A DNA stretch of 64,000 nucleotides, taken from NCBI GenBank assembly GCA_000283575.1, contig AP012044.1, forward strand, positions 1,364,001-1,428,000. Direction: 5' to 3'. Each line of letters opens with the position of its first letter. The first letter of the stretch is position 1. Below, piece after piece: positions 35,475 to 48,464 of the stretch. The translations under genes were made by a program, and so were the position numbers. This stretch comes from Oscillibacter valericigenes Sjm18-20 (lineage in GTDB: Bacteria; Bacillota; Clostridia; Oscillospirales; Oscillospiraceae). The notes beneath the pieces were generated by a model that was not told the DNA's origin, did not search any database, and saw only the letters and a program-made list of their open reading frames with translations.

Positions 35475-36602
35475 TTAATTACCTAAGCACGCATTCAGTT
35501 CTTCGCAGATTGCCATTTTATCCATGCTTTGCCCAATAAAAACAAGCTTAATATAGCGGTCTCCATACTTCTTGTCCCAGCCAACTCTGCCTTCCAGATG
35601 GCCTTGAAACATTTTCCGCTGTTGAACGCTTCCAGCTGCAACCAACCACTTTCCAAACGGCTGGGCTGTAATCTGCTTTCCGGCCTGTTCAAACATATAA
35701 GAAATATCCGGTTCATCGTTAAACCATAGTATGCCCTTGCAACGAATGACGCTGGTCGGAAAGCGATCTTTGGTAAAATCCTCAAACTTGTGCGTAATAA
35801 ATGGCCTTCTCTGTTTATATACAAAGGTTCCGATTCCGTACTCTTCTGTTTCGGGAATTTCTTCTTCCTTCTCAAGCAATGTTTTTACCCATCCGGCAGA
35901 TTTTATTGCTTTGTCAAAGTGAAAAGCAAAGGTATCCAAGATGTCAGCGCAATCAACTACGCCAAAATTTGTTTCAATAACCTTTGCTTCCGGCTGCAAC
36001 CTCCGTATTACTGATAGAACTTCTTTTTTTACCTCAGTGGGAATCTCATCAACTTTATTCAGTACGACTGTGTTACAGAATTCGAGCTGCTGGATTAATA
36101 AATTTTCGATATCCTCATCATCCAAATTTTCCTTTAAGAGCGTAGAGCCATTAGCAAATTCGTCAGCCATACGCTTTGCATCCACTACGGTGACAATATT
36201 GTCCAGCCTGCAAAGCTCAGGTAATTCGTCCGAATCTTTTAGTGAACCGTCGATCAGGGTCAGCGTCTGCGCAATTGGTATAGGCTCACAGACACCACTT
36301 GCCTCGATCAAAATATAGTCGAATCGTTCCATTCTGACAAGGCTGAGGATCTGCGCGATTAAATCTAATTTCAGAGTGCAGCAAATACAGCCGTTCTGTA
36401 ATGGAATCAAATTCTGATTCTGCTCGGTTGCTTGCCCGTCTTTTGAAATCAAATCTGCATCTATATTAACTTCACCGATGTCATTTACGATTACAGCTAC
36501 TTTATACCCCTGTTGATTCCGCAACACATGGTTCAGAAGCGAAGTCTTACCCGCTCCTAAATATCCGGTCAGCAACGTGATCGGCAAAATATTTCTGCTC
36601 AT
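35475..36602 (-). CDS. COG0523 (CobW/ZNG-type) metallochaperone GTPase I
   Basis: A 375-residue G3E GTPase. Walker A is GYLGAGKTS (GAGKTS at residues 16-21), the metal-binding GCICC motif is at 71-75, EASGV is the switch region, and NKVD gives base specificity. The C-terminal CobW_C domain ends KLVFIGQSMDK. Such proteins deliver zinc (or cobalt) to client enzymes and are often induced by zinc shortage. It is the last gene of an operon with L28 and L33 paralogues under a TTGCAA-type box. A decayed copy of the same C-terminus lies at 50877-51068. Confidence 0.92.
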   Translation of the reverse strand: MSRNILPITLLTGYLGAGKTSLLNHVLRNQQGYKVAVIVNDIGEVNIDADLISKDGQATEQNQNLIPLQNGCICCTLKLDLIAQILSLVRMERFDYILIEASGVCEPIPIAQTLTLIDGSLKDSDELPELCRLDNIVTVVDAKRMADEFANGSTLLKENLDDEDIENLLIQQLEFCNTVVLNKVDEIPTEVKKEVLSVIRRLQPEAKVIETNFGVVDCADILDTFAFHFDKAIKSAGWVKTLLEKEEEIPETEEYGIGTFVYKQRRPFITHKFEDFTKDRFPTSVIRCKGILWFNDEPDISYMFEQAGKQITAQPFGKWLVAAGSVQQRKMFQGHLEGRVGWDKKYGDRYIKLVFIGQSMDKMAICEELNACLGN

Positions 36603-36640
36603 AATTCACTTGACCTCCTGTATCTAAAAAATACGATTCA

Positions 36641-36810
36641 TCACGACTTGACTTCTTTGTGAAGCGTATGTTTGCGAAGCCTGGGACAATATTTCGTCAT
36701 TTCCAGACGTTCGGGACATGTTTTCTTGTTTTTTGTCGTCGTGTAATTTTTTCACCGCATTCTGTGCAGGCAAGCGTAACCATCACGCGTCCTGAATTCT
36801 TAGTACTCAC
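36641..36810 (-). pseudogene. rpmG: L33 ribosomal protein paralogue with a one-base deletion in an A-run
   Basis: The start is a GTG at 36810 after GGAG, giving [20 protein letters not shown]. After a run of six A residues the frame is lost. The natural continuation [20 protein letters not shown] then [15 protein letters not shown] is one base out; seven A residues would restore it. The first CxxC is kept (CTEC), but the second pair reads CPRL, so it would be a zinc-poor paralogue. It is either broken or a homopolymer sequencing error. It lies between L28 and the CobW gene. Confidence 0.75.
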
Positions 36811-36831
36811 AAATTTCACTCCATCTTTTAA

Positions 36832-37017
36832 TCAGACTCGTTGGATTAGGCCGGATCTCAAGACACTGGTTGAAACCCAAATATGTTTCCGAGTCCCGTT
36901 TTCTACTACGTGAACTCTTTTTAGATTCGCCTTTATCTTTTTGTTTGATCTATGATGGGAATGACTGACTTTGTTTCCGAATGTTGTAGTCTTTCCGGTA
37001 ATTGCACACTTAGCCAT
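36832..37017 (-). CDS. rpmB: Zinc-independent L28 ribosomal protein paralogue
   Basis: A 61-residue bL28: MAKCAITGKTTTFGNKVSHS, HHRSNKKIKANLKRVHV, and LRSGLIQRV. The usual zinc ligands are lost: CxxC is CAIT and the second pair (CTRC in the zinc form) is STSV. Zinc-free paralogues of this kind replace the zinc form when zinc is scarce and free the metal for other uses. It is the first gene of the operon with L33 and CobW, behind a promoter with a Zur-like palindrome. Confidence 0.9.
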   Translation of the reverse strand: MAKCAITGKTTTFGNKVSHSHHRSNKKIKANLKRVHVVENGTRKHIWVSTSVLRSGLIQRV

Positions 37018-37038
37018 TCAAAATACCTCCACGTTCAA

Positions 37039-37090
37039 TTCGCAATTAATTTGCAAATTATATATTATCACAATTATTGGAAAACGTCAA
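37039..37090 (-). promoter_or_regulatory. Promoter and Zur-like box of the rpmB-rpmG-cobW operon
   Basis: On the minus strand TTGACG (37085-37090), 17 bases, TAATAT (37062-37067). Directly downstream lies the palindrome TTTGCAA-N5-TTGCGAA (37039-37057). The same TTGCAA-N5-TTGCAAA form precedes the CobW gene at 39408. Binding by a zinc-responsive Fur protein is inferred. Confidence 0.65.
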
Positions 37091-37137
37091 TTGATAATCC
37101 AAAAGTCTGGAACCAATTAATAAATTGTTTACAAGTA

Positions 37138-37190
37138 TTGACAAATGTACTGCGTGGCGATATTATAATATATGCAAATGCTTTGCAAAT
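37138..37190 (+). promoter_or_regulatory. Promoter and TGCAAAT repeats before the first zinc-ribbon gene
   Basis: TTGACA (37138-37143), 17 bases, TATTAT (37161-37166). Then ATGCAAATGCTTTGCAAAT (37172-37190) sits at the expected start site: two TGCAAAT half-sites, here in direct order around a short palindrome GCAAA-tgc-TTTGC. The promoter diverges from the rpmB promoter. Confidence 0.6.
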
Positions 37191-37208
37191 TAAATGGAGG
37201 GAAATTCT

Positions 37209-37508
37209 ATGTTTGAAGACAAAGTGCTGATATGTATTGAATGCGGCAAGGAATTCATATGGACTGCCGGTGAGCAGGAATTCTATGCTGAGAGAGGCTT
37301 CCAGAACGAGCCTAAACGCTGCCCGGAGTGTCGGAAATCTCGTAAGGAGCAGCGAAACGGTTCATCAAACGGGGAACGTGTTATGTATGACGCGATATGC
37401 GCCCGCTGTGGGAAACCTTGTAAGGTTCCGTTTAAACCAAGGGAAGACCGCCCTGTTTATTGCAGCGAATGCTTTGCGGAAATGCAAGCTGAGCGGAATA
37501 CCCGGTAA
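37209..37508 (+). CDS. Double zinc-ribbon protein (zf-trcl plus CxxC-x17-CxxC), copy 1
   Basis: The start at 37209 follows GGAGGG. The 99-residue product has an N-terminal ribbon (CIECGKEFIWTAGEQEF ... CPECRKSRK). The C-terminal part has two CxxC pairs exactly 17 residues apart (CARC ... CSEC, residues about 68-91). Both patterns are known small zinc-ribbon families of unknown function. A near-identical paralogue follows znuA at 46419. Control by a zinc-type box makes it odd that the product itself can bind two zinc ions. Confidence 0.8.
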   Translation: MFEDKVLICIECGKEFIWTAGEQEFYAERGFQNEPKRCPECRKSRKEQRNGSSNGERVMYDAICARCGKPCKVPFKPREDRPVYCSECFAEMQAERNTR

Positions 37509-37697
37509 TGTACTGATATAAAAACGCAATGCACAATGGCACTTGGTTCTTTTCAATTACCGATATATAATGCAATACGCAAAGAAAATAAAAGTGCTGA
37601 TCGCAAGCGAACGGATTTCTAGTGCTTATTACAAAGATAGTCTTTCCTCACGCAGGTTATCCCGATTGGATTCTTGGCTCTCTCTTTTTTAAATGGC

Positions 37698-37740
37698 AGC
37701 AAAAAGCCGACGGAAGCACTCGCTCCGTCGGCTTTTTGCT
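37698..37740. terminator. Bidirectional terminator between the zinc-ribbon gene and the Fur-family gene
   Basis: A perfect 17-bp stem (37698-37714 with 37724-37740) has A-rich and T-rich edges on both strands. It serves the rightward zinc-ribbon transcript and the leftward Fur-family gene. Bases 37509-37697 hold nothing recognised. Confidence 0.85.
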
Positions 37741-37748
37741 GCGTAAAT

Positions 37749-38171
37749 TCATTTGTTTTTATCTGCAGAGGAGCAGTTGCCGCAAACTCCGTATAACATG
37801 CTGCCCTCGCATTGCAACTCGAAATTGTGATGTTCCTTCAAGTGTCCTTTAAATTCGTCCATAAAGCCGCAATCCAAGTGAATGATCCTTCCGCATTTCA
37901 CACATTTCAGGTGTAAATGATCCTCGCAATGCTGATCCTCGGCTAATTGATAGACTGCTTTTGGGCTTTTGTCAGATATATATTTGATTACTGCATGGTC
38001 GGAACAAAGTTTATCAAGATAGCGATAAACAGTTGACTGGTTGACGGGCACTCCCTTTTCTGTCAAATACTGCAAAATGTCGGAAACGCTTACAGTTGCA
38101 GACCAGTTTTTTTTCAAACAGCTCATGATTTCCTGCCTTGCTTTTGTACTGTAACTTTCGCTTCTTGGCAT
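37749..38171 (-). CDS. Fur-family regulator I (probable Zur)
   Basis: A 140-residue protein with an N-terminal winged helix (ARQEIMSCLKKNWSATVSVS ... VNQSTVYRYLDKL). The C-terminal metal domain has HCEDHLHLKCVKCGRIIHLD and CGNC as the two structural-zinc pairs. The family includes Fur, Zur and PerR. The setting among zinc genes points to Zur, but which of the two Fur proteins here does the sensing cannot be told from sequence. Confidence 0.85.
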   Translation of the reverse strand: MPRSESYSTKARQEIMSCLKKNWSATVSVSDILQYLTEKGVPVNQSTVYRYLDKLCSDHAVIKYISDKSPKAVYQLAEDQHCEDHLHLKCVKCGRIIHLDCGFMDEFKGHLKEHHNFELQCEGSMLYGVCGNCSSADKNK

Positions 38172-38283
38172 AATGTCCTCCCTGTAAATTTCTGTAATTT
38201 TCAGTCATAGTACAATCTTTTCGTTGCTGTACTTTTCTTTATATTAGTCCTCGTGCTCCCTTGGCAAATATGCAATTTTCATC

Positions 38284-39408
38284 CTACGCAAGACAATCTT
38301 GCAATTTTCTTATGATTTCTCTTTGATTATATTCGCGCCCAATGAATACGACTTGATTCAAACGGTCTCCATAAACTTCGTCCCAGTCGTTCAATATCTC
38401 CGGATAATTTTCAAAAACTTCTTTTTGATCACTCTCTGGTAGCGATACTACCCAATTCGATACCTCCGTGATCGAAGCGTTTCGTCCTGCCTGCTCAAAC
38501 AACTGGACGTGAATATCGTCGTCTGAAAACCAGATATATCCTTTTGCGCGAATCATAGTGCCTGGGTAATCGTTCTCCATAAAAGCGGTAAATCGATCAC
38601 GGTTCAGCGGATGGCGATCTTCAAACACAAAAGAAGTGATCCCATATTCGGAATGCTGACCACTCGTTTCTGCTTTACCGGCAAGCGTCCGTGAAACCAT
38701 TGAGGAATTTCTAACCTTATCGTAATCAAGTTGCTGATGATTCATAATCAAAGCCGGACTAACCTTGCCCTGAATTGTCTCAACAATCATGGCTTCTGGC
38801 TGTAATTCGTGTAACGCCTGTTTTACCCGGTCTAATTTATCACGCGGCAGCAGATCACATTTATTGAGTAGAATTAGATTGCAAAATTCGATCTGATCCA
38901 TAATTAGGTTGATGATATCGGGATCTTGATCTTCAAATTCTTGTTCGGTTCGTTCTTCCAAATCGTCCAGAAATTCCGCATAAATGCGGTCAGCATCTGC
39001 CACGGTCACTACCATGCTTAAATAGACCGGGCTTTGAGGTTTTGTCTCCTGATACATCATAAAACTCTGGGCAATGTTGCCGGGGTCACTGACACCCGAC
39101 GCCTCTACAAGAATCATCTCAATATCGGGTACTGCTGACAGCTTTTCTATTTCTACCATAAACTGATCCCGGAGCGTACAGCAGATACAACCATTCTGCA
39201 ATTCGATCATATTATTACTGTAAGTAGAAGCACAACCACTGCGTAACAGTGTAGCATCGATGTTAACGCTGCCCATGTCATTGACAATAATGGCAAACTT
39301 CCTTCCGACCTGATTCTGCAACAGTTCTTTCATAACGGTGGTTTTCCCACTTCCGAGATAACCGGTCAGTATAATTACCGGTTTTTTCACAGTTTTCCCT
39401 TTGAGCAT
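38284..39408 (-). CDS. COG0523 metallochaperone GTPase II
   Basis: A 374-residue G3E GTPase with Walker A GSGKTT (residues 19-24), GCICC (73-77), EASGVSDPG and NKCD. The C-terminal domain ends NQVVFIGREYNQREI. It differs from copy I by a Cys in the RSGCAST loop. It is a single-gene unit, with a TTGCAA-N5-TTGCAAA box upstream and a separate Fur gene downstream. Likely function is zinc delivery under limitation, inferred from family and control. Confidence 0.92.
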   Translation of the reverse strand: MLKGKTVKKPVIILTGYLGSGKTTVMKELLQNQVGRKFAIIVNDMGSVNIDATLLRSGCASTYSNNMIELQNGCICCTLRDQFMVEIEKLSAVPDIEMILVEASGVSDPGNIAQSFMMYQETKPQSPVYLSMVVTVADADRIYAEFLDDLEERTEQEFEDQDPDIINLIMDQIEFCNLILLNKCDLLPRDKLDRVKQALHELQPEAMIVETIQGKVSPALIMNHQQLDYDKVRNSSMVSRTLAGKAETSGQHSEYGITSFVFEDRHPLNRDRFTAFMENDYPGTMIRAKGYIWFSDDDIHVQLFEQAGRNASITEVSNWVVSLPESDQKEVFENYPEILNDWDEVYGDRLNQVVFIGREYNQREIIRKLQDCLA

Positions 39409-39474
39409 TTTTTGCCCTCCCCAAAAGCATGATACGTTTTATGCATATGCAGCTTTGGCGCTCATCTGTTCATA

Positions 39475-39495
39475 ATTGCAACTAACTTGCAAATT
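39475..39495 (-). promoter_or_regulatory. Zur-like box before CobW GTPase II
   Basis: The palindrome AATTGCAA-CTAAC-TTGCAAATT spans this interval and shares arms and spacing with the rpmB box at 37039. No clear promoter was picked out. Confidence 0.55.
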
Positions 39496-39562
39496 ACACT
39501 TTACATGATGCGGGGCTCTGTGTCAATAGCGCTTCCCCAGCCGCTTTTTCTGCAAATGCTAC

Positions 39563-39605
39563 AAAAGTATGGCTCGGCTGTTTACTCAGTCTTAGCCATA
39601 CTTTT
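39563..39605 (-). terminator. Terminator of the YcgQ-type gene
   Basis: AAAAGTATGGCT (39563-39574) pairs with AGCCATACTTTT (39594-39605). The minus-strand operon from 43172 ends here. Confidence 0.75.
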
Positions 39606-39638
39606 ATGCATCATAGTTCCTTGCCTAAAAAAGAATCA

Positions 39639-40568
39639 TTACCACGGATAGACATATTCTTCTTTCGGTTTATCTGCAGAAGAAATATGCGCCACGGTAA
39701 TCTGAGGTTCATCCTCTCCCTGATATTTCCCTATGTGGATGACACCTGTTACCTCTACCCATGTATCTTCCTCTAATTCAGAAGCTTTATCATATTCGCA
39801 AATAATACCGCAGGGCGACAAATCGGCGCTGCAGCACCACATCAATAACCTTGCAGGAGCAAATTCATTTGATTTCATGGTTTCAGAGTCTTTGTAAACA
39901 AAGCCCTTGATTGTTATCGTGGTCCCGTCATATTGCTTCAGATTAGAGTATATCTCTGACATCCATGGGTAAAACAGATCATCCGATACATTTATTGATC
40001 CGTCTTCCGATAACTTCAACCCGTATTGTTTTTTAATACTGTCGCCCTGTTGCCCATCGGTTCCTGAACCTCCCGCAGTATCTGCACCGTTATCAGAAGA
40101 CATAGCCGCTGGAGCGGAACTCACGGACATATCTTCATTCGATGTATCTGCATTAACGGAACTGTCGCTTGTCACGGATGAATTGCTTTGCGGTGCGGCG
40201 GCCTCATAAGCTTTTACACTGGCGGAAGAAGTATTGCCCGATGCGTTGGTTAAGCTGCTGCCGCCAAGGTACCCCGACGACATTCCGGAAGTAATGACAG
40301 AACTGTGCGGCAACAGCAGGAACAAGATCGGAATGACCAAAATAAGGCAATGCGCCGCGCGCGTCCGATGCTGTGGGCGGAATATACCGGGGAACTTTGA
40401 AACTGCCCAGACTAGCATTACTGCCGAGGTGAAGTATAGATAGGGAGCCATCTTAGGCGTTACATAGGAAAGATATCTTCTGCTGGCGGTCAGATAAAAT
40501 AGCAATACGGCAAAAAAGGAAAAGCAAATAAATTCCAAACAAGCCTGTGAATTGATTCTCTTAAGCAT
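39639..40568 (-). CDS. TIGR03943/DUF1980 (YcgQ-like) membrane protein
   Basis: The start at 40568 (MLKRINSQACLEFICFSFFA) is 3 bases from the permease stop. The 309-residue product has two or three N-terminal membrane segments, a Ser/Thr-rich linker and a C-terminal domain. That domain contains ITIKGFVYKD, LMWCCSADLSPCGIICEYD and EPQITVAHI. YcgQ proteins always travel with YcgR-type permeases and probably work with them. Here the partner is the GTPase-permease fusion directly upstream. Confidence 0.8.
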   Translation of the reverse strand: MLKRINSQACLEFICFSFFAVLLFYLTASRRYLSYVTPKMAPYLYFTSAVMLVWAVSKFPGIFRPQHRTRAAHCLILVIPILFLLLPHSSVITSGMSSGYLGGSSLTNASGNTSSASVKAYEAAAPQSNSSVTSDSSVNADTSNEDMSVSSAPAAMSSDNGADTAGGSGTDGQQGDSIKKQYGLKLSEDGSINVSDDLFYPWMSEIYSNLKQYDGTTITIKGFVYKDSETMKSNEFAPARLLMWCCSADLSPCGIICEYDKASELEEDTWVEVTGVIHIGKYQGEDEPQITVAHISSADKPKEEYVYPW

Positions 40569-40570
40569 AT

Positions 40571-42145
40571 CTATACTCCCAAAAGAGGCCGTGCAAGTAT
40601 GAAAACAACAAGGTAACATACGATAAAGGTAAACAACAGGAGTTTTCCAACAAAACCTTTGGAAAAACCGCCTGACAACATGAACAGGTTTTTGATATCC
40701 ATCATTGGGCCAAATACCAGAAAACCCATAACAGCTCCGGTTGAGAAGTTTGAACTGAAGCTTCGGGCGACGACCGCATCAGATGTGGAGCAAAGCGATA
40801 AAACGAAGGCCATAATAATCATTACAAGCAGTGATAAAGCAAAACCTGCTCCATTCTGAACGGACAACGATCTAGTCCCGATTGTCTGGAAAAACGCAGA
40901 TATAAACGCGCCTGTCAAAAGGTATTTACCGACGTTGAAAAATTCTGCCTGAGAATGTCGTACAAAAAGCCCGAGTTTTCCTTTTACCCCAGGCATAGAA
41001 GCAACACCGTCATAGCAGCCACAGCTGCACATAATACCATCAAAGCTGTTAGACAGAATTTTCCCTCTGGATGGAAATATTGAAAAGAGCAAGCCAATTA
41101 AGACGGAGGAAACGATACCTAGACCCACTCGCACCGCGACAACCCGCAGGTTGCCGTTGAAAGCATAGTACGTGGACAAAATTACAACCGGATTAATAAC
41201 AGGTGTAGCTGTCAAAAAGGTTACCGCCGCGGGGATGGGAACTCCTTTTTTTACAAGACTTCTAAATATAGGAACAGAAGCACAGTCGCAGACGGGCAGG
41301 CAAAATCCCCAAAAAACGGCAACTAACAGCCCAAGTCCTAAATTTTTAGGGAATCTCCGTTCAATGGCATCGCTGGGTATAAAAATCTGAATTGCAGATG
41401 AAATCAGAACGCCAATCAAAAGAAACGGAACGGCCTGCAGAATAATGCCTAAAAATACATTGATTAATGTATTCAGCGGCGTGTGTGAAAAGTCGAAAGA
41501 CGGAGTGCCAAAAATATAATAGATCGCCCAAAAGCAGGCAATGCCGATACAAAGTATACTGATCGGATTTGCATATTCGCTATAAATACTTCTGAGCATT
41601 TTTGATATCTGCATTTCCCCGTATGTTTCCATACCGGGGTTAATGCTGTTCATTAACCGCCTAACATACTTTGCTTTGCTGCTTGAATCCATATTTCGCA
41701 CCACAGCAAAGTCGCAATTGGAAATCTGCTCTGGGAGTACTCCGCCCGTTTGCTTCAGCATGATATCCAGTGTATTGGCATCTGCCACATGGATCACTTT
41801 CTTGATTTTGCAGATATGATGCAAGTCCGAATTGGAAAAAAGAGACAAAAACTGGGAAAAAAAAGCAACCCCATTCCACTCAACCCAAACTTCATCTACT
41901 TCATATTCATTTAAATAGCTGATAATCTGTTGAACAATTTGGTTGGGAGATTGTTCTAAATGTGTTTTAGAAAAGGTTACTACATCGCAGTTATCATACT
42001 GGCTGGAAAACTCCTCATCGCCTGACTCAAACTGGATTAAGAGCAACTGTACCTCCCGCATTTCAGGTTGATTCAGCAGCTGATTCAGCAAGGATGTTTT
42101 ACCGGAGTCAAGAAACCCGGTTACAACATAAACGGATATCGCCAT
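40571..42145 (-). CDS. Fusion of a G3E GTPase-like domain to a YcgR/DUF318-type permease
   Basis: A 524-residue protein. Residues 1 to about 180 are CobW-like: VVTGFLDSGKTSLLNQL (Walker A at 13-18), VEWNGVA in place of the E.SGV switch, HVADANTLDIML. The Cys motif GCICC is absent and NKxD reads RNMD. From about residue 193 a polytopic permease follows (roughly eight to ten membrane segments) with the family motifs PVCDCASVPIF and ATPVINPVVI and a loop CSCGC. The gene lies 5 bases after CobW III and 3 bases before the YcgQ gene. It probably moves a metal or metal complex; the fused domain may gate or load it. This is inferred from the fusion. Confidence 0.85.
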   Translation of the reverse strand: MAISVYVVTGFLDSGKTSLLNQLLNQPEMREVQLLLIQFESGDEEFSSQYDNCDVVTFSKTHLEQSPNQIVQQIISYLNEYEVDEVWVEWNGVAFFSQFLSLFSNSDLHHICKIKKVIHVADANTLDIMLKQTGGVLPEQISNCDFAVVRNMDSSSKAKYVRRLMNSINPGMETYGEMQISKMLRSIYSEYANPISILCIGIACFWAIYYIFGTPSFDFSHTPLNTLINVFLGIILQAVPFLLIGVLISSAIQIFIPSDAIERRFPKNLGLGLLVAVFWGFCLPVCDCASVPIFRSLVKKGVPIPAAVTFLTATPVINPVVILSTYYAFNGNLRVVAVRVGLGIVSSVLIGLLFSIFPSRGKILSNSFDGIMCSCGCYDGVASMPGVKGKLGLFVRHSQAEFFNVGKYLLTGAFISAFFQTIGTRSLSVQNGAGFALSLLVMIIMAFVLSLCSTSDAVVARSFSSNFSTGAVMGFLVFGPMMDIKNLFMLSGGFSKGFVGKLLLFTFIVCYLVVFILARPLLGV

Positions 42146-42149
42146 TCTG

Positions 42150-43172
42150 TCACTTCCCGCTAAAGAGGTCCAACAGATCCTGCTTGTTCAGATTCCGACC
42201 AATAATACAAAGCATGTTGCCACTTACTGCGCATTCTGTCACTTTTATGTCTCCGGGGATATATTGCAGATTTATATATCCACTTGCCCCACGAACGATA
42301 CCTTTTGCGCGAAAAATCGTTCCACTTGTGTTTCTTTCCATGCTGGATACCCGCTCTTTCAGATCCTCAATGCTAAATATCTGATCAGTCTGTATGGTAA
42401 CCGTATCAAAAACATCTTCCGCAGTATGGTTATGACCGCAGGAACAATGGCTGTGGTCACAGGAGCAATTGAGGTCATGATCGTGGGTAACATCGTGTTC
42501 TGTATGATTATGCCCACTTTGGCACTCACATCCGCATTTGCAGTCATGTATATGTACGTGTTGCTCTATACAGACGTGATCGTTACAGTACGGAGATAGA
42601 ATTTCGTCTACCTTAATTTGATCCCAAGGCTTTGCCAAGATGAGGGCATGTGGATTTATGCCTCTGATCATTTCGTAAGCAGAGTTCACCTTGTCAGGGA
42701 ACTCCTCAGCACGGCTTAGTAAGACAACATCGGCGTTTTTAATCTGATCCTCAAAAAATTCACCAAAGTTGTCAAGATACGTTTTGCAACGTTTCACATC
42801 TGCAACGGTTATTTTAGCCGCAACTTTTGCATGGGGGTTGACACGCAGGTCAGCGCATGCCTTTGCGATATCCGACAGTTTGCCAACACCAGACGGCTCA
42901 ATAATAATTTTATCCGGATGGAAACGGTCCAAGAGTTCTTTAAGGGCTTTAATAAAATTACCCGAAAGGCTGCAACAAATGCACCCGGAATTCATTTCTT
43001 TTACCTCGACGCCGCCCGTATTAAGCAGGGCGGCGTCGACGCTTATCTCGCCAAAATCGTTCTCGATGAGGGCAACCTTTTCTTTTTGAAACGCCTCTTT
43101 CAGCAGCTTCTGGATCAGCGTGGTTTTCCCGGCTCCCAGAAAGCCGGAGATCACATATATTTCTGCAGTCAT
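42150..43172 (-). CDS. COG0523 metallochaperone GTPase III with His/Cys-rich metal-binding linker
   Basis: A 340-residue G3E GTPase with GAGKTT (residues 13-18), GCICC (63-67) and EPSGVG. SRAE stands where NKxD is expected. Residues about 196-250 form a very His/Cys-rich loop with repeated HNH, HDHD, CSC and HSH units, a classical zinc or nickel store. The C-terminal domain is shorter than in copies I and II. It is the first gene of a three-gene operon with the GTPase-permease fusion and YcgQ, so it likely hands metal to or from that transporter. Confidence 0.9.
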   Translation of the reverse strand: MTAEIYVISGFLGAGKTTLIQKLLKEAFQKEKVALIENDFGEISVDAALLNTGGVEVKEMNSGCICCSLSGNFIKALKELLDRFHPDKIIIEPSGVGKLSDIAKACADLRVNPHAKVAAKITVADVKRCKTYLDNFGEFFEDQIKNADVVLLSRAEEFPDKVNSAYEMIRGINPHALILAKPWDQIKVDEILSPYCNDHVCIEQHVHIHDCKCGCECQSGHNHTEHDVTHDHDLNCSCDHSHCSCGHNHTAEDVFDTVTIQTDQIFSIEDLKERVSSMERNTSGTIFRAKGIVRGASGYINLQYIPGDIKVTECAVSGNMLCIIGRNLNKQDLLDLFSGK

Positions 43173-43199
43173 TTATATGCTCCTTATGTCATGCGGTAA

Positions 43200-43622
43200 T
43201 TATTCTGAATAACAATCCTTACAAAGTCCAAATACTTCAAGATTATGTCCCATTACATGAAAATCATCTTCTTCAAGTTCCGGTATGAATTTCTCCATTG
43301 GGCAATTATCCATCGCAATAATCTTGTGACAATTCATGCAGACGGCATAGTGCTTATGTTTAAAGCGATTGAGTTCGTATACTGCCATTTCATTATTCAT
43401 TACCCTGGTTTTAATCACTACACCCTTTTTTTCAAAAAAATCCAATACCCTGTAAACGGTTGACATCCACGATGTATCTCCGCTTTTTTCCATCTTAGAG
43501 CAAATGTCCAACGCACTCAAAGGTGTATCGGAATGTTCCAGTATCGATAATACGCTTTCACGCTGTTTGGTTCTTTTTATTCCCTCAGGCCATCTATTCT
43601 GCTCCTTTTCCACTATACTCAC
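43200..43622 (-). CDS. zur: Fur-family regulator II (Zur-like)
   Basis: A 140-residue protein with a winged helix (RTKQRESVLSILEHSDTPLS ... WMSTVYRVLDFFEKKGV) and metal ligands HKHYAVCMNCHKII and LCKDC. It is preceded by a CGCAAAT-N7-ATTCGCA box (43679-43699), so it may control itself. It is 28 bases upstream of CobW III and is probably co-transcribed with it. It is a better Zur candidate than the first Fur protein because of this box, but that is inferred. Confidence 0.82.
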   Translation of the reverse strand: MSIVEKEQNRWPEGIKRTKQRESVLSILEHSDTPLSALDICSKMEKSGDTSWMSTVYRVLDFFEKKGVVIKTRVMNNEMAVYELNRFKHKHYAVCMNCHKIIAMDNCPMEKFIPELEEDDFHVMGHNLEVFGLCKDCYSE

Positions 43623-43678
43623 CTCATTCTTATTAAGAAAAGTCCATCCTGCGCTCTCTGATTTTATGTATTATGATA

Positions 43679-43699
43679 CGCAAATGCGTTCTATTCGCA
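43679..43699 (-). promoter_or_regulatory. Zur-like box before Fur-family regulator II
   Basis: CGCAAAT-N7-ATTCGCA, the same 7-7-7 form as the boxes at 45298 and 45362 flanking the znu genes. Confidence 0.65.
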
Positions 43700-43773
43700 A
43701 TTGAATTTATTACATTATAGAGTGCAGCTCACTCAAAGTCAAGTGTAACGCATCCACATGATGCCTATAGGTA

Positions 43774-44589
43774 TCATGTGCGGTAAGTGGTGTGAATGCT
43801 GGATTTTAACTTTTTTATGAGCAAGACCACAACAAGGACAGCAACGGAAACAAGGGCTGTAAACCCACCGGGCGCGACATTGAGATAATACGAAATAAAC
43901 AGTCCCAGCATAATGTCTATTACGCTAAAAATAATTGAAAATATCAGGGTAAGCTTAAAACCCTTTCCGAGCTGCAGCGCCGTGGCGACGGGGAGCGCGA
44001 TCATGGAACTGAGCACCAGCACACCAACAATCCTGATCGATACGGATATGGCGGAGGCAACCAGAACAGAAAAGACATAATTGATTGTCCGGACTTTGAC
44101 ACCGGCTACCTTGGCGGCTTCCTCGTCATAGGCGATATAGACCATCTGATGATACAAAAAGATAAGTGTCAAAACAGAAATTGCGCTGAGAATTACTACC
44201 ATGATCATATCAAACTGGGTCACGGTCAGGATGCTTCCAAACATAAACGAATCCGCATTTGCATGGAGCTTACCGGAACTGATGATGGTAATGGCGGTGC
44301 CTACGCCCAGAGCGAGGACGATGGTGAGGATCAGGTCCGTGTATTTTTTGAAATAGCTGCGTAGAAATTCGATCAACGCGCCACAGATGGACGTAAAGAT
44401 AAATGCTCCCAGTATGGGGTTTTGATTTGCCAGAAGGCCGAGCGCAATGCCAGCCAGCGAGGCGTGAGATAAGGTGTCGCCGATCATGGAGTAACGGCGG
44501 AGAACCAAAAAGATGCCAATGCAGGGACATAAAATCGAAATAAATACAGACACGAAAATTGCATTCTGCATAAAGACATAATGAAGCAT
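43774..44589 (-). CDS. znuB: Zinc ABC transporter permease
   Basis: A 271-residue ABC-3 family permease with about eight membrane segments. It opens MQNAIFVSVFISILCPCIGI, and LRRYSMIGDTLSHASLAGIALG is the typical first cytoplasmic loop motif of ZnuB/TroC proteins. VRTINYVFSVLVASAIS follows later. It lies 6 bases after the ATPase gene in the same minus-strand operon, divergent from znuA. Confidence 0.9.
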   Translation of the reverse strand: MLHYVFMQNAIFVSVFISILCPCIGIFLVLRRYSMIGDTLSHASLAGIALGLLANQNPILGAFIFTSICGALIEFLRSYFKKYTDLILTIVLALGVGTAITIISSGKLHANADSFMFGSILTVTQFDMIMVVILSAISVLTLIFLYHQMVYIAYDEEAAKVAGVKVRTINYVFSVLVASAISVSIRIVGVLVLSSMIALPVATALQLGKGFKLTLIFSIIFSVIDIMLGLFISYYLNVAPGGFTALVSVAVLVVVLLIKKLKSSIHTTYRT

Positions 44590-44595
44590 GGTCCT

Positions 44596-45258
44596 TTACC
44601 TTCCCTTATTTTTCAAAAATTCGTCTGCGTATTGCTGAGGCGAGCAGAGATGGCCACTTCCGCCCGTCAGGTGGTAAATCAGCGTCGAGTTTGAGATTGC
44701 AGCATCCAAATTGTGCTCAACGGAAATAATGGTGATGCTGCTTTCATCGTTTATTTTCTTTAAGAAACTGTATATCTCTTTTTGGCTGCCCACATCGACG
44801 CCCGTTGAGGGCTCGTCAAGAATCAGTAAATCCGGATTTCCCATGAGCGCTCGGGCAATCAATATTTTCTGGCTTTGCCCCCCCGAGAGGGTGCCCATCA
44901 AGGCACCCGCAAATTTGGACATTCCAACCTGCTCCAGATTTTTTGCAATCACGCTTTTATCTTTGATCCTTGAAATCTTTCGGTAGGAATTCAGAGCCTC
45001 ATACACCGTAATGGGGAAATTGGAGTTGGAGAAATCATTTTTCTGTGGGACATAGCCAATTCTTTTTGCTTTTAATTCAATGGTTCCTCTTGTGGGTTTT
45101 ATAAACTTCAGTATCAGCCGCATCAGTGTGCTTTTCCCGCTGCCGTTTTCGCCTACGACCGAAACATACTCGCCATCCCGTATCTCCAGATTGATCCCGT
45201 CCAGCACATACGGAGGCGAGCCTGTATAAGAAAAAGATAAATTTTCTGCCTTAATCAT
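44596..45258 (-). CDS. znuC: Zinc ABC transporter ATPase
   Basis: The start at 45258 (MIKAENLSFSY) follows AGGAAGG with a 9-base spacer. The 220-residue product has Walker A GENGSGKST, signature TLSGGQSQK, Walker B LLILDEPSTG and a switch His (VEHN). It is full length for ZnuC. It pairs with the permease downstream and with the binding protein ZnuA, which is divergently transcribed from the same intergenic region. Confidence 0.9.
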   Translation of the reverse strand: MIKAENLSFSYTGSPPYVLDGINLEIRDGEYVSVVGENGSGKSTLMRLILKFIKPTRGTIELKAKRIGYVPQKNDFSNSNFPITVYEALNSYRKISRIKDKSVIAKNLEQVGMSKFAGALMGTLSGGQSQKILIARALMGNPDLLILDEPSTGVDVGSQKEIYSFLKKINDESSITIISVEHNLDAAISNSTLIYHLTGGSGHLCSPQQYADEFLKNKGR

Positions 45259-45297
45259 GAGCAACATCCTTCCTGACTGCGGATTATAAAATTTAGA

Positions 45298-45382
45298 TGC
45301 AAATGCATTTTATTCGCACTTGACAAATATAACCACGCAGAGTTATCATTGCTATTATAAATGCGAATGGTAATCATTTGCA
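45298..45382. promoter_or_regulatory. Two Zur-like boxes in the znuCB-znuA divergent region
   Basis: Box 1 (45298-45318) is TGCAAAT-N7-ATTCGCA. Box 2 (45362-45382) is TGCGAAT-N7-ATTTGCA, the same site inverted. A TTGACA (45320) is adjacent to box 1; no well-placed -10 could be fixed. Two boxes allow separate zinc control of each direction. Confidence 0.7.
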
Positions 45383-45411
45383 AGTAAAATTTTTGGAGGT
45401 TGATTCACGTG

Positions 45412-46368
45412 ATGAAAAAATGGACTGTCATGCTGTTATCACTGCTTACCATTGTAAGCCTTGCAGCGTGTGGCAGTAATAATCCGGCAAGTACATCGGC
45501 AGGTACCGGCACGTCTGCAGGAAGCAGCGATCAAACGAGCACGCAGGAAACCAGCAAGCTTCAGGTGTCCGTAACGTTTGACGCCATGAAAGAGTTCGTC
45601 GAGGCTGTCGGACAGGATAAAGTCGAGATTTCCACGATTATACCCGACGGAACAGAGCCTCATGATTTTGAGCCCAAGGCACAAGATCTTGTTGGGCTTA
45701 GCACGGCTAAGGTTTTTGTGTATAACGGACTTGGCATGGAAGCATGGGTAGATAAGGCGGTCAATGCCGCCAATAATGCCGAACTGGTCACAGTGGAAGC
45801 GTCCAAGGGTGCTGATGCAATTGAAAACACGGACCCTGGAGAAATTGAAGAACACGGACAATATGATCCCCACCTGTGGATCAGCTTAAAGGGTGCTGAA
45901 CTGGAAGCAAAAAATATTAAGGACGGGCTTATTCAGGCGGACCCGGCTAACAAAGACTTTTACCAAACCAACTGTGATGATTTTGTTGCTCAGCTAGAAA
46001 GCTTGTACAATGAATATAATAAAAAATTCCAGTCGGTAGATAAAAAGAGCTTTGTGACGGGACATGCCGCTTTTGGCTATCTCTGCCGTGATTTTGGTCT
46101 GAAGCAAAACAGCGTGGAAGACGTTTTTGCCGAAGGCGAACCCACCGCGCAACAGCTCAGTGAGCTTGTTGAATATTGCAGAGCAAACAATGTAGCGATC
46201 ATTTTTGCTGAAGAAATGGCAAGCCCGGACGTTTCGCAGACGCTGGCCAAGGAAGTCGGTGCAGAGGTGGAAACCATCTACACAATTGAGAGCGCCGAGG
46301 ACGGTATGACATATCTGGAACGGATGCAAAGCAACCTGGCCAAAATTTATGAAAGTTTGACAAAGTAA
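45412..46368 (+). CDS. znuA: Zinc ABC transporter substrate-binding lipoprotein
   Basis: The start at 45412 (MKKWTVMLLSLLTIVSLAAC) follows TGGAGG. The lipobox is LAAC. The 318-residue product has the family pattern: IIPDGTEPHDFEPKAQD with the first His, HGQYDPHLWIS with the second, TGHAAFGYL with the third and FAEEMASPDVS near the end. The His-rich loop of many ZnuA proteins is absent. It is divergent from znuCB and probably co-transcribed with the second zinc-ribbon gene. Confidence 0.92.
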   Translation: MKKWTVMLLSLLTIVSLAACGSNNPASTSAGTGTSAGSSDQTSTQETSKLQVSVTFDAMKEFVEAVGQDKVEISTIIPDGTEPHDFEPKAQDLVGLSTAKVFVYNGLGMEAWVDKAVNAANNAELVTVEASKGADAIENTDPGEIEEHGQYDPHLWISLKGAELEAKNIKDGLIQADPANKDFYQTNCDDFVAQLESLYNEYNKKFQSVDKKSFVTGHAAFGYLCRDFGLKQNSVEDVFAEGEPTAQQLSELVEYCRANNVAIIFAEEMASPDVSQTLAKEVGAEVETIYTIESAEDGMTYLERMQSNLAKIYESLTK

Positions 46369-46418
46369 ATATAGTTCGTTTAACTAAATATGTCATGTTT
46401 AAGGGGTTGCTGAATTTT

Positions 46419-46703
46419 ATGTATGAGGACAAAGTCTTGATCTGCAAAGAGTGCGGAAAGGAATTTATCTGGACGGCGGGCGAACAGGAGTTTTATGCAG
46501 CACGGGGATTCCAGAATGAACCGCAAAGATGCAAAGAATGCCGAGAAGCTAGGAAACAAGCCGGAAGAGGTCCGCGCGTTATGTATGATGCTGTTTGCGC
46601 GAATTGTGGAAGGCCATGCAAGGTCCCATTCCAGCCTACAGAAGGTCGCCCTGTGTATTGCAGCGAATGCTTTGCGAAAATGAAAGAAACTGCAAATAGT
46701 TAA
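46419..46703 (+). CDS. Double zinc-ribbon protein, copy 2
   Basis: The start at 46419 matches the start of the paralogue at 37209. A 94-residue protein with the same CKECGKEFIWTAGEQEFYA start and the CxxC-x17-CxxC tail (CANC ... CSEC). It follows znuA by 50 bases with no terminator between, so it is likely in the znuA transcript. Two copies flanking the zinc island suggest dosage or recent duplication. Confidence 0.8.
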   Translation: MYEDKVLICKECGKEFIWTAGEQEFYAARGFQNEPQRCKECREARKQAGRGPRVMYDAVCANCGRPCKVPFQPTEGRPVYCSECFAKMKETANS

Positions 46704-46780
46704 GCAAATAAGTGAGAAAAGCCAAAGTGCCTAACGTGCTCAAGTAAGCGTTGCGCTAGCGGTTTTCAGCTTGTCGAAGA

Positions 46781-46804
46781 AGCCCAGCTTTGGCTGGGCT
46801 TTTT
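46781..46804 (+). terminator. Terminator after the znuA/zinc-ribbon unit
   Basis: AGCCCAGC (46781-46788), loop TTTG, GCTGGGCT (46793-46800) and then TTTT. Confidence 0.8.
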
Positions 46805-46842
46805 CGTTTTCATTTGGTAAAATAGGGGTTAGGTGATGCGGG

Positions 46843-46960
46843 ATGTTGCGACGTGGAAAATTAGATCACGGTGTGCTGGAAATGGTGGGTACAGAAAGTC
46901 TGGTGCCGCACAATCATCTGCTGCGGAAGATCGACGCAACGGTGAAATCGAGGTCGAGAG
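46843..46960 (+). pseudogene. Possible IS1182-type transposase N-terminal fragment
   Basis: The plus frame reads MLRRGKLDHGVLEMVGTESL and VPHNHLLRKIDATVKS. The LVPHNHLLRKID stretch is the start pattern of IS1182/DDE transposases. It ends after about 40 residues, so only a scrap remains. The rest of 46961-47320 shows no gene apart from a 39-codon open frame at 47079. Confidence 0.45.
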
Positions 46961-47040
46961 CTTTGTATTCAAGCATAACGACGGCTTTACAGATACGCGG
47001 AATCGTCGTAGGCATTCTTTTTCTCGCCAGTGAGATATAA

Positions 47041-47358
47041 ATGTCATATGCCATAAATAAGGTGGCAGGGGGGTAACTATGCCAAATATAGATGATACGG
47101 GTTTTCACAGATGTGGTATCAGGGTAGCTGAGGCTATGGCCGATACCGCAGTGCAAGCCACGTTAAAAAAAGAGCTTTTGTTGTTTCGTTGCCGATAGCG
47201 ACAAAGACGCTCTGACGGTGCAGAAAGTAGCTCTTGAACAGCGTTTCGCCTGCGTAGAGAAGCGTTTGCATAGAGGTTTGTTTACGGACTGACTGGTAGA
47301 CGATCCGGCTTGTACAAGCGAATACGGCATATGTCAACAGCAAAATTGACATATGCCG
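47041..47358. promoter_or_regulatory. CATATG-type operator cluster upstream of the molybdate operon
   Basis: A 13-bp inverted repeat CGGCATATGTCAA-N8-TTGACATATGCCG (47325-47358) and a single related site TGTCATATGCCATAA (47043-47057). The left arm, read on the minus strand, gives TTGACA-17-TACAAG, a promoter facing left. The same motif lies before the NifU operon and near the ferredoxin. Confidence 0.55.
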
Positions 47359-47558
47359 CAAGTAAAAGAATGCGATAAAGTAAGTCCTATTCCTTAGTAC
47401 CACATCGACGGTACCATGACCAGCACTATGCAGATCGCGGCTGCGCTGGTGCTGATATAGGATTTGAGCATAAAAAAAGCGGAACGCTGATCGGTGCGCT
47501 TTTCGCTTCCGTAAGATGCCACAGTTTAAATTAGTCCATAATATAAATTTCGTTATAC

Positions 47559-47587
47559 TTGACCGAGAATATCGACTGTGCTATTGT
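47559..47587 (+). promoter_or_regulatory. Promoter of the modABC operon
   Basis: TTGACC (47559-47564), 17 bases, TATTGT (47582-47587), 44 bases before the modA start. I saw no Moco riboswitch in the short leader. Confidence 0.5.
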
Positions 47588-47630
47588 TACATCAGCAGCC
47601 TACAAGTCAATTCATAAGGGGGAGAAACAG

Positions 47631-48464
47631 ATGAAAAAGATCTTAGTAACGGTTCTTGCGTTCTCAATGGCACTTGCGCTTGCTGCCTGCGGTGGACAGG
47701 GACAGGATTCCTCCGGCAGCGTCTCCGGCAATGCTGCCACCTCTGCGGCATCCGGAGAAGCAGCAGTCTCCACATTGGGGACACCGGATCTCAACGGTCA
47801 GTCGCTTTTGATTTACTGCGGCGCGGGAATGCAGCAGCCCTTCCAGGAAATTGCAGACGCATTTCAGAAGGAAACCGGCTGTCAAATGAATGTTACTTAC
47901 GCAAACGCGGCGCAGATTCAAACACAGATCACAGAATCCAAGGAGGGCGACTTCTTTATTGCCGGTTCCGCAGAAGAGGTAAAGCCCGTCAAAGACGATG
48001 TATCCAACAGTGTGGATCTTGTAAAGCATATTCCCGTTCTGGCAGTTGCCAAGGGAAACCCAAAAGGAGTTACTGGCATTGCGGATCTGGGCAAAAGCGA
48101 TATTGTGACCGTGATTGGAGATCCGGAGTCCACACCGATTGGAAAGATTGCAAAAAAAGCATTTTCTGATTTTGGTGTCTCCGATAGCGTAACGCTTGGC
48201 GCCACAACGACCACGGCTCCCCAGCTGGCAACGGTTGTTGGGCTGGGAGAGGCAGATGCGGCTATCATCTGGAAGGAGAACTGCAATGCCGACGGCGTGG
48301 AAATCTGTGAGACGAAGGACTTGGACAGCTATGTAAAAACGGTTCCAGCGGCAAGGCTCACTTTTTCCACTAGCAGCGCGGCTGCGGACGCATTTAGCAC
48401 GTTTCTCAGTTCAGATGCGGCCAACCAGATATGGTCTGCCTACGGCTATGAATTGGCGGAATGA
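47631..48464 (+). CDS. modA: Molybdate/tungstate-type ABC transporter binding lipoprotein
   Basis: The start at 47631 (MKKILVTVLAFSMALALAAC) follows AGGGGGAG. The 277-residue product has lipobox LAAC, then LLIYCGAGMQQPFQEIADAF, GDFFIAGSAEEVKPV, VIGDPESTPIGKIAKK and a C-terminal TFSTSSAAADAFSTF. It belongs to the ModA/WtpA-like oxyanion-binding family. Molybdate, tungstate or another anion cannot be told apart here. The permease start overlaps its stop (ATGA). Confidence 0.85.
   Translation: MKKILVTVLAFSMALALAACGGQGQDSSGSVSGNAATSAASGEAAVSTLGTPDLNGQSLLIYCGAGMQQPFQEIADAFQKETGCQMNVTYANAAQIQTQITESKEGDFFIAGSAEEVKPVKDDVSNSVDLVKHIPVLAVAKGNPKGVTGIADLGKSDIVTVIGDPESTPIGKIAKKAFSDFGVSDSVTLGATTTTAPQLATVVGLGEADAAIIWKENCNADGVEICETKDLDSYVKTVPAARLTFSTSSAAADAFSTFLSSDAANQIWSAYGYELAE

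Follow-up and report, generated by a model that had tools for sequence, protein, structure and literature searches.

Results

Genes at the locus

The window, a stretch of 64,000 nucleotides of the Oscillibacter valericigenes Sjm18-20 genome, contained a same-strand run of genes for a ZnuC-like ABC ATPase, a ZnuB-like ABC-3 permease, a Fur-family regulator, a CobW protein, a fusion protein, and a DUF1980/TIGR03943 (YcgQ-type) protein. The gene for a ZnuA-like lipoprotein was oriented opposite to this run. The features are given below in positions of the window.

38284–39408, minus strand: COG0523 protein (the second one; ZigA-like) carrying both CxCC and CobW_C
39639–40568, minus strand: protein of the DUF1980 type (YcgQ/TIGR03943), with its corrected start at 40568; three stretches of hydrophobic residues (by eye), a Ser-rich linker, and DUF1980_C with CC-x-x-D
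40571–42145, minus strand: G3E-like domain fused to an ArsP_1 permease, 524 aa
40598–41476, minus strand: ArsP_1 permease core of the fusion, residues 224–516 (C286-x-C288, H397, E401, C452, D483)
41600–42145, minus strand: G3E-like (pseudo-COG0523) domain of the fusion, residues 1–182; Walker A at residues 10–17, E40-x-G42, and E89-x-N91-G92, without CxCC and NKxD
42150–43172, minus strand: CobW protein with CICC, a His/Cys-rich insert, and CobW_C; partner gene of the fusion
43200–43622, minus strand: Fur-family regulator (possibly Zur), no subfamily model at cut-off
43679–43699, no strand assigned: operator copy 3, in front of the Fur-CobW-fusion-YcgQ genes
43774–44589, minus strand: ZnuB-like ABC-3 permease (PF00950, 205.1 bits, cut-off 20.1)
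44596–45267, minus strand: ZnuC-like ABC ATPase (PF00005)
45298–45318, no strand assigned: operator copy 1, TGCRAATN7ATTYGCR
45362–45382, no strand assigned: operator copy 2; copies 1 and 2 lie between znuC and znuA
45400–46368, plus strand: ZnuA-like binding lipoprotein (PF01297, 263.6 bits; H88, H158, H222)

The three His residues of the ZnuA-like protein presumably occupy the usual ligand positions. The CobW gene ends at 42150 and the fusion gene starts at 42145. The YcgQ-type gene probably starts at 40568, right after the fusion stop, because GGGAG and then ATG stand directly behind that stop; a longer open reading frame starting at 40619 was set aside in favor of this start.

Since a second Fur-family gene (37749–38171, minus strand) and a third CxCC-bearing COG0523 gene (ZigA-like; 35475–36602, minus strand) were also present, there are two regulators of the Fur type and three CobW proteins with CxCC in the block. 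Genes for two similar small double treble-clef zinc-finger proteins (zf_Tbcl + zf_Tbcl_2; 37194–37508 and 46395–46703, plus strand) flanked the zinc genes, and inverted repeats like half of the operator were seen upstream of the one at 37194–37508. A transporter gene of the cation efflux family (PF01545; 52952–54127, minus strand) was located approximately 6 kb past the zinc block.

Domains of the fusion protein

The open reading frame analysis indicated a single 524-residue frame running from 42145 to 40571 on the minus strand with an ATG start. Pfam assigned cobW to residues 5–169 (49.1 bits against a cut-off of 20.7) and ArsP_1 (PF03773) to residues 224–516 (194.3 bits, above the curated cut-off of 32.3). 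These matches bear out the preliminary description, in which one frame was said to join a CobW-like part to a YcgR-type permease. Its account of the G domain also agreed with the sequence: Walker A was present as GFLDSGKT, CxCC was absent, and RNMD occupied the NKxD position. The neighbors were likewise as it had named them, namely a His/Cys-rich CobW protein with CICC and, just downstream of the fusion, the YcgQ-type (DUF1980) gene. Neither CobW_C (PF07683) nor the FeoB G-domain and gate profiles matched the fusion in Pfam at E up to 0.01.

Recurrence of the fusion and its partners

The preliminary description had allowed for a missing stop or a frameshift between the two domains, or for homologues that are never fused, and had suggested a search for the same fusion and gene order elsewhere. 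Full-length homologues with 28–61% identity were found in 22 further fetched neighborhoods, and the fusion recurred with the same gene order. A chance join was rejected on these homologues, and a sequencing error or missing stop was rejected on the occurrence of the same fusion in 28 distinct places among the fetched loci. The counts used here (28 places for the fusion, 5 for a split form, and 37 for a DUF1980_C-fused form) refer to fetched loci only, with identical G domains counted once; many more listed places with frames of 310–350 aa stand outside them.

At the limits set for the search, a full-length match was observed in 18 of 391 genomes, the window's own included, in an even draw of the class. 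Among 60 relatives, again including the own genome, the full-length fusion was found only in the own genome. Anaerotignum and two more clostridial records also carried the fusion, as did another four genomes from a draw of the phylum, and a distant form was found at L057/L131. The distant relative at L131:5943-7733 has 596 residues with a longer middle part, and the CobW protein beside it carries a long insert within its G domain. Plasmid records gave 54 matches, none of which covered at least 80% of the fusion query; the ten shown covered the permease half. As a separate observation, L100:1486-3288 encodes an ArsP_1 permease of the free form that bears PKD domains at its N terminus, another fusion of this permease family.

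The DUF1980 gene followed the fusion in all 28 distinct places. A CobW gene adjoined the fusion in 25 of them (22 upstream on the same strand and 3 divergent), which confirms CobW as the usual neighbor. CxCC was in view in 24 of these 25 CobW proteins, the last one (L089) being truncated at the contig end ahead of the motif. The three fusions without an adjoining CobW comprised one at a contig edge and two for which no CobW match was found within their stretches of 17.6–17.7 kb. The fusion is thus a recurring architecture with a consistent partner set.

In five genomes (G305, G224, G356, G127, and G445), the order was CobW, short G domain, and permease, with the G domain encoded by a separate gene of 209–218 residues between the other two. 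The split form thus represents the fusion as two genes; DUF1980 was seen after the permease in three of the five genomes only (G305, G224, and G356).

The GC content was 0.42–0.46 over 36–48 kb of the window (36001–48000), as compared with 0.47–0.57 elsewhere in it. Given this low GC content, the absence of the fusion from 59 relatives, and the fact that the nearest G domains came from six other family groups, we infer that the zinc gene block was gained laterally. A gene for an IS110-type transposase (PF01548, PF02371; 33003–34286, plus strand) was noted close to one edge of the low-GC block.

Motifs and phylogeny of the G domain

We compared 70 G domains, consisting of 65 fused ones, whose labeling was independent of CxCC, and 5 split ones, for which absence of CxCC was used in the labeling. 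Walker A was retained in 70/70 and E-x-N-G, which replaces the usual E-x-S-G, in 69/70, whereas no domain had CxCC and only three had an NKxD string. Besides the P-loop, E40 and G42 in the switch region, E89, and N91-G92 were invariant in 29 aligned domains. According to passages of PMC2770081, COG0523 carries CXCC and the G3E family has an intact NKXD. The preliminary description spoke of GCICC and NKxD as lost; they are indeed absent from the window protein, but CxCC in 0/70 and NKxD in 3/70 G domains mark the loss as a trait of the whole family. A loss peculiar to this genome was accordingly rejected, and so was membership as an ordinary COG0523 protein, the CxCC and NKxD motifs and CobW_C, a domain of most members, being lacking. 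The domain shares its fold, Walker A, and the Walker B glutamate with the COG0523/CobW proteins (YjiA, ZigA/YciC, and CobW), and differs from them in these three features and in being joined to a permease or to DUF1980_C. As judged from its motifs, the G domain looks still able to bind nucleotide, but it lacks CxCC for metal binding and the motif for guanine specificity.

NKxD was also missing from 64 of 69 CxCC-bearing CobW rows and present in five, a point that the preliminary description had left unmentioned; these rows were labeled by CxCC, and a few are ZigA-type. All 29 partner CobW proteins lacked it, with L-S-R-T/S often at its position. The guanine motif thus appears weakened on both partners.

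The tree was a quick version with a weakly supported root, and several permease-fusion rows stood on long branches. It placed the CxCC-bearing rows on one side of a branch with a support of 91 and the others outside; the DUF1980_C fusions and the split forms were supported at 98 and 99, respectively. On this quick tree, the permease fusions need three changes.

Structure models

The AlphaFold model of the fusion had a mean pLDDT of 81.5 and a pTM of 0.58, values at which the placement of the domains relative to each other is unreliable. Using Foldseek, YjiA was the best match to the G domain (E 3.4e-07), and it was also the sole family match among PDB sequences. Comparison of the G domain with HypB, UreG, IcmF, and YjiA gave Z values of 14.1–15.4, the IcmF match (Z 14.7) extending over residues 1–191, and the Ffh/FtsY GTPases scored lower. 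In the predicted structure, the G domain therefore has the overall G3E/SIMIBI fold.

The permease, taken from the whole-fusion model, aligned to ArsB with a Z of 14.5 (rmsd 4.8, 280 aligned residues) and to NaCT/VcINDY with Z values of 11.9–14.2. Two similar Cys/Pro stretches in the permease sequence agreed with these matches. The ArsB/ion-transporter fold is characterized by two inverted repeats that contain re-entrant hairpins. We take the fold match as a tentative lead, because helical proteins can reach a Z of about 13 by arrangement alone. C286, C288, C452, and D483 were kept in 25/25 fused or split permeases and in 23/23 free ones, indicating that the transporter half is not degenerate.

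G domain joined to DUF1980_C

The G domain was also found fused to DUF1980_C, in proteins of 309–357 residues at 37 distinct fetched places. In the three proteins scanned, Pfam matched cobW and PF21537; our own profiles were also used to assign the form. This form also occurs elsewhere in the window's genome (L125:7451-8380). A CobW gene lay beside the fusion in 35 of the 37 places, and the other two were cut by contig ends; these figures were taken from a listing of 46 loci in which some places are repeated, with two misses. For the permease fusions, the neighbor counts were instead taken from the individual stretches, since the listing repeats places and labels overlapping genes as divergent. 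The CobW proteins beside this form were very His-rich in the cases read. ArsP_1 permeases gave no match in six 16-kb stretches around such pairs. Foldseek yielded no fold for DUF1980_C, all 50 matches shown being G-domain or other P-loop proteins, and the open-licence literature searched gave no description of a protein joining the G domain to DUF1980_C. Since the permease and DUF1980, both partners of the G domain, are already a known pair, the three forms may represent one working unit.

When DUF1980 proteins were aligned and inspected by eye, the order seen was a basic loop, a third hydrophobic stretch, the Ser/Thr-rich linker, and the CC-x-x-D domain. By the positive-inside rule, basic loops face the cytosolic side. 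DUF1980_C of the free DUF1980 protein would accordingly lie outside the cell, while the G-domain fusions require an inside position, and the CC-bearing domain would then serve both sides of the membrane. The topology model of ScfB, as given in part of PMC5584981, has two membrane helices, which would place both ends on one side and thus speaks against the two-sided reading.

Operator-like repeats

The 21-base pattern TGCRAATN7ATTYGCR was derived from sites in the window locus, and its inner half is presumably a Fur-family box of the 7-1-7 form. Exact copies occurred at three places in the 4.47-Mb genome, all in this locus. With one mismatch allowed, the whole genome gave 8 and 8 matches by strand against 6 and 6 for the reversed control; hence, only the exact sites and their recurrence across genomes carry weight. 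An independent test used 23 related stretches (389,838 bases) with the window excluded and L065, a 3.2-kb contig, left out. Here we obtained 7 exact, 4 one-mismatch, and 10 two-mismatch matches, as compared with 0, 0, and 1 for the reversed pattern, where matches within a stretch may overlap. At no more than one mismatch, the operator was present in 8 of the 23 stretches (L060, L061, L062, L063, L066, L069, L078, and L082) and absent from the other 15. It stood where the CobW frame begins in L062 and upstream of the CobW-fusion-DUF1980 genes in L069, a stretch that gave no ZnuABC or Fur match.

Near the CobW genes of DUF1980_C-fused pairs, no such operator was found in any of six stretches, the one two-mismatch match lying away from CobW. 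The few neighbors of these pairs that were scanned included no zinc genes. These two results suggest that the function of the pair may extend beyond zinc starvation.

The Fur-family regulator at 43200–43622 stayed below the cut-off of every subfamily model, and Zur is for this reason only a possible name. The locus is linked to zinc by znuABC, the Fur-family gene, and the shared operator; zinc as the metal, the import direction, and the regulation in the cell are putative assignments from gene context. The preliminary description, which read the fusion as a dedicated metal transporter with a built-in GTPase gate loaded by the adjacent CobW, is thus supported in part; metal transport by the permease, the gate, and the loading by CobW are putative as well. 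In favor of the zinc reading, PMC6336718 describes that Zur of a Bacillus binds in front of an operon that encodes an ArsP_1 permease with no known specificity and by gene number adjoins a yciC gene. The Zur boxes of this Bacillus lie upstream of the -35 region and were read by the authors of that study as positive, not negative, control, which counts against a repressor reading of the window operators.

Discussion

We tentatively propose, as a reading that may well be right while falling somewhat short of probable, that the locus is a zinc-starvation uptake module in which the permease-borne pseudo-GTPase docks or gates with CobW, which receives the metal there. A Fur-family repressor (possibly Zur) would act at the operators before znuCB, znuA, and the regulator-CobW-fusion-YcgQ genes. 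ZnuABC would be the first importer of the module, and the second would consist of the ArsP_1 permease and the DUF1980 protein as its partner. The CC-bearing domain of DUF1980, probably extracellular, may pass metal to the Cys-x-Cys hairpin of the permease. On the cytosolic side, the SIMIBI/G3E domain carried by the permease would pair with the neighboring CobW as a nucleotide-dependent heterodimer, modeled on SRP with its receptor or on the two halves of ArsA, and CobW docked at the permease exit would take the metal there. The heterodimer and the metal handover are put forward as a hypothesis drawn from these analogies.

The position of a permease-borne G domain beside a metal-binding GTPase suggests a putative two-GTPase metal handover at the membrane. 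In more general terms, it is possible, with doubt prevailing, that G domains joined to the permease or to DUF1980_C form a family of pseudo-GTPase receptors, each pairing with a metal-carrying CobW in a SIMIBI heterodimer for direct transfer of metal from transporter to chaperone. Such receptors would have given up metal and guanine recognition, and the transfer would be under nucleotide control, like that of SRP cargo at its receptor. The docking model is supported by the G domain staying paired with CobW even when joined to DUF1980_C, and weakened by the two fusions without a nearby CobW. The import reading is weakened because the named relatives of ArsP_1 are exporters by annotation; the nearest named subfamilies, SO_0444 (Cu/Zn efflux) and SaoE, were both far below cut-off. 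The free ycgR/ycgQ pair of B. subtilis is placed under ECF sigma factors in a portion of PMC5584981, which counts against the zinc-starvation reading.

Three other explanations were considered. The fused G domain could act as an autonomous gate in the manner of FeoB, hydrolyzing nucleotide alone to open the permease, with CobW taking up cytosolic metal later without docking. This seems rather unlikely: the conserved Walker A and E-x-N-G and the two fusions lacking a nearby CobW would agree with it, as would the precedent of FeoB, a known permease for which both ATP and GTP are under debate as the nucleotide used (PMC9164220), but CobW adjoins the G domain in 25/28 fusions and 35/37 DUF1980_C fusions, and the motif for base recognition is gone. 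Moreover, the six stretches around DUF1980_C fusions, having no ArsP_1 match, offer no such permease alongside to be gated. Transport in the outward direction, with the permease exporting a metal, a metalloid, or a metallophore and the G domain serving as an energizing or docking subunit, is in our judgment unlikely. The alignments of the permease model to ArsB and NaCT/VcINDY, the efflux annotation of the nearest named subfamilies, though below cut-off, and the parallel of the ArsA-ArsB pump favor export. Against it stand the operator-like repeat and gene order common to the permease and znuABC, and a helical Z near 13 can reflect a common arrangement.

The fused domain might finally do no more than hold CobW or a membrane complex in place, its P-loop being kept for folding and not for switching. 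The absence of CxCC in 70/70 and the scarcity of NKxD (3/70) would fit such a passive tether, but the invariance of E40, G42, E89, and N91-G92 in the 29 aligned domains goes, as we judge it, beyond the needs of folding and makes a mere tether very improbable.

Several known systems resemble the fusion and its partners in part. FeoB bears a cytosolic NTPase domain on the N-terminal side of a metal permease, as the fusion does, whereas no FeoB model matched the fusion in Pfam; we take the G class here to be G3E/SIMIBI and the permease to be ArsP_1. The ArsA-ArsB-ArsD pump combines a SIMIBI NTPase, a permease, and a metal chaperone like the set in the window, and the window permease model resembles ArsB; however, ArsA is separate and double-domain, and the pump works in export, unlike the import proposed here. 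The YcgR/YcgQ (ScfA/ScfB) pair has the same permease core residues and an adjacent DUF1980 gene, but its free forms are without the G domain. For ScfA/ScfB, the streptococcal YcgR/YcgQ pair, the relevant parts of PMC5584981 report fitness genetics and no known function, and the open-licence literature, as far as its accessible text went, yielded genetics and no transport data on the homologues. In IcmF-type proteins, a G3E domain is covalently joined to its client enzyme (PMC9164220, in part), as in the fusion, although the client is a soluble mutase and not a permease.

The consulted portion of the review PMC9164220 mentions no G3E-permease fusion, and the main text of PMC2770081 does not contain the words "fused", "fusion", or "permease". 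In the open-licence literature, we found no account of the permease fusion, no mention of TIGR03943, and no title on the fusion under DUF1980 or DUF318. Earlier notice in subscription journals is possible, and public domain databases may already show the two domains together.

As far as the open-licence search went, the fusion architecture is thus undescribed. To our knowledge, how metal passes from importer to chaperone and which clients most COG0523 proteins serve are largely open questions in bacteria. Here, a partner domain for the chaperone is possibly built into the transporter, so that both questions would become addressable by two-protein binding. If the proposal is true, FeoB would no longer be alone as a metal permease with an integral NTPase domain, and the domain here would come from a different GTPase class.
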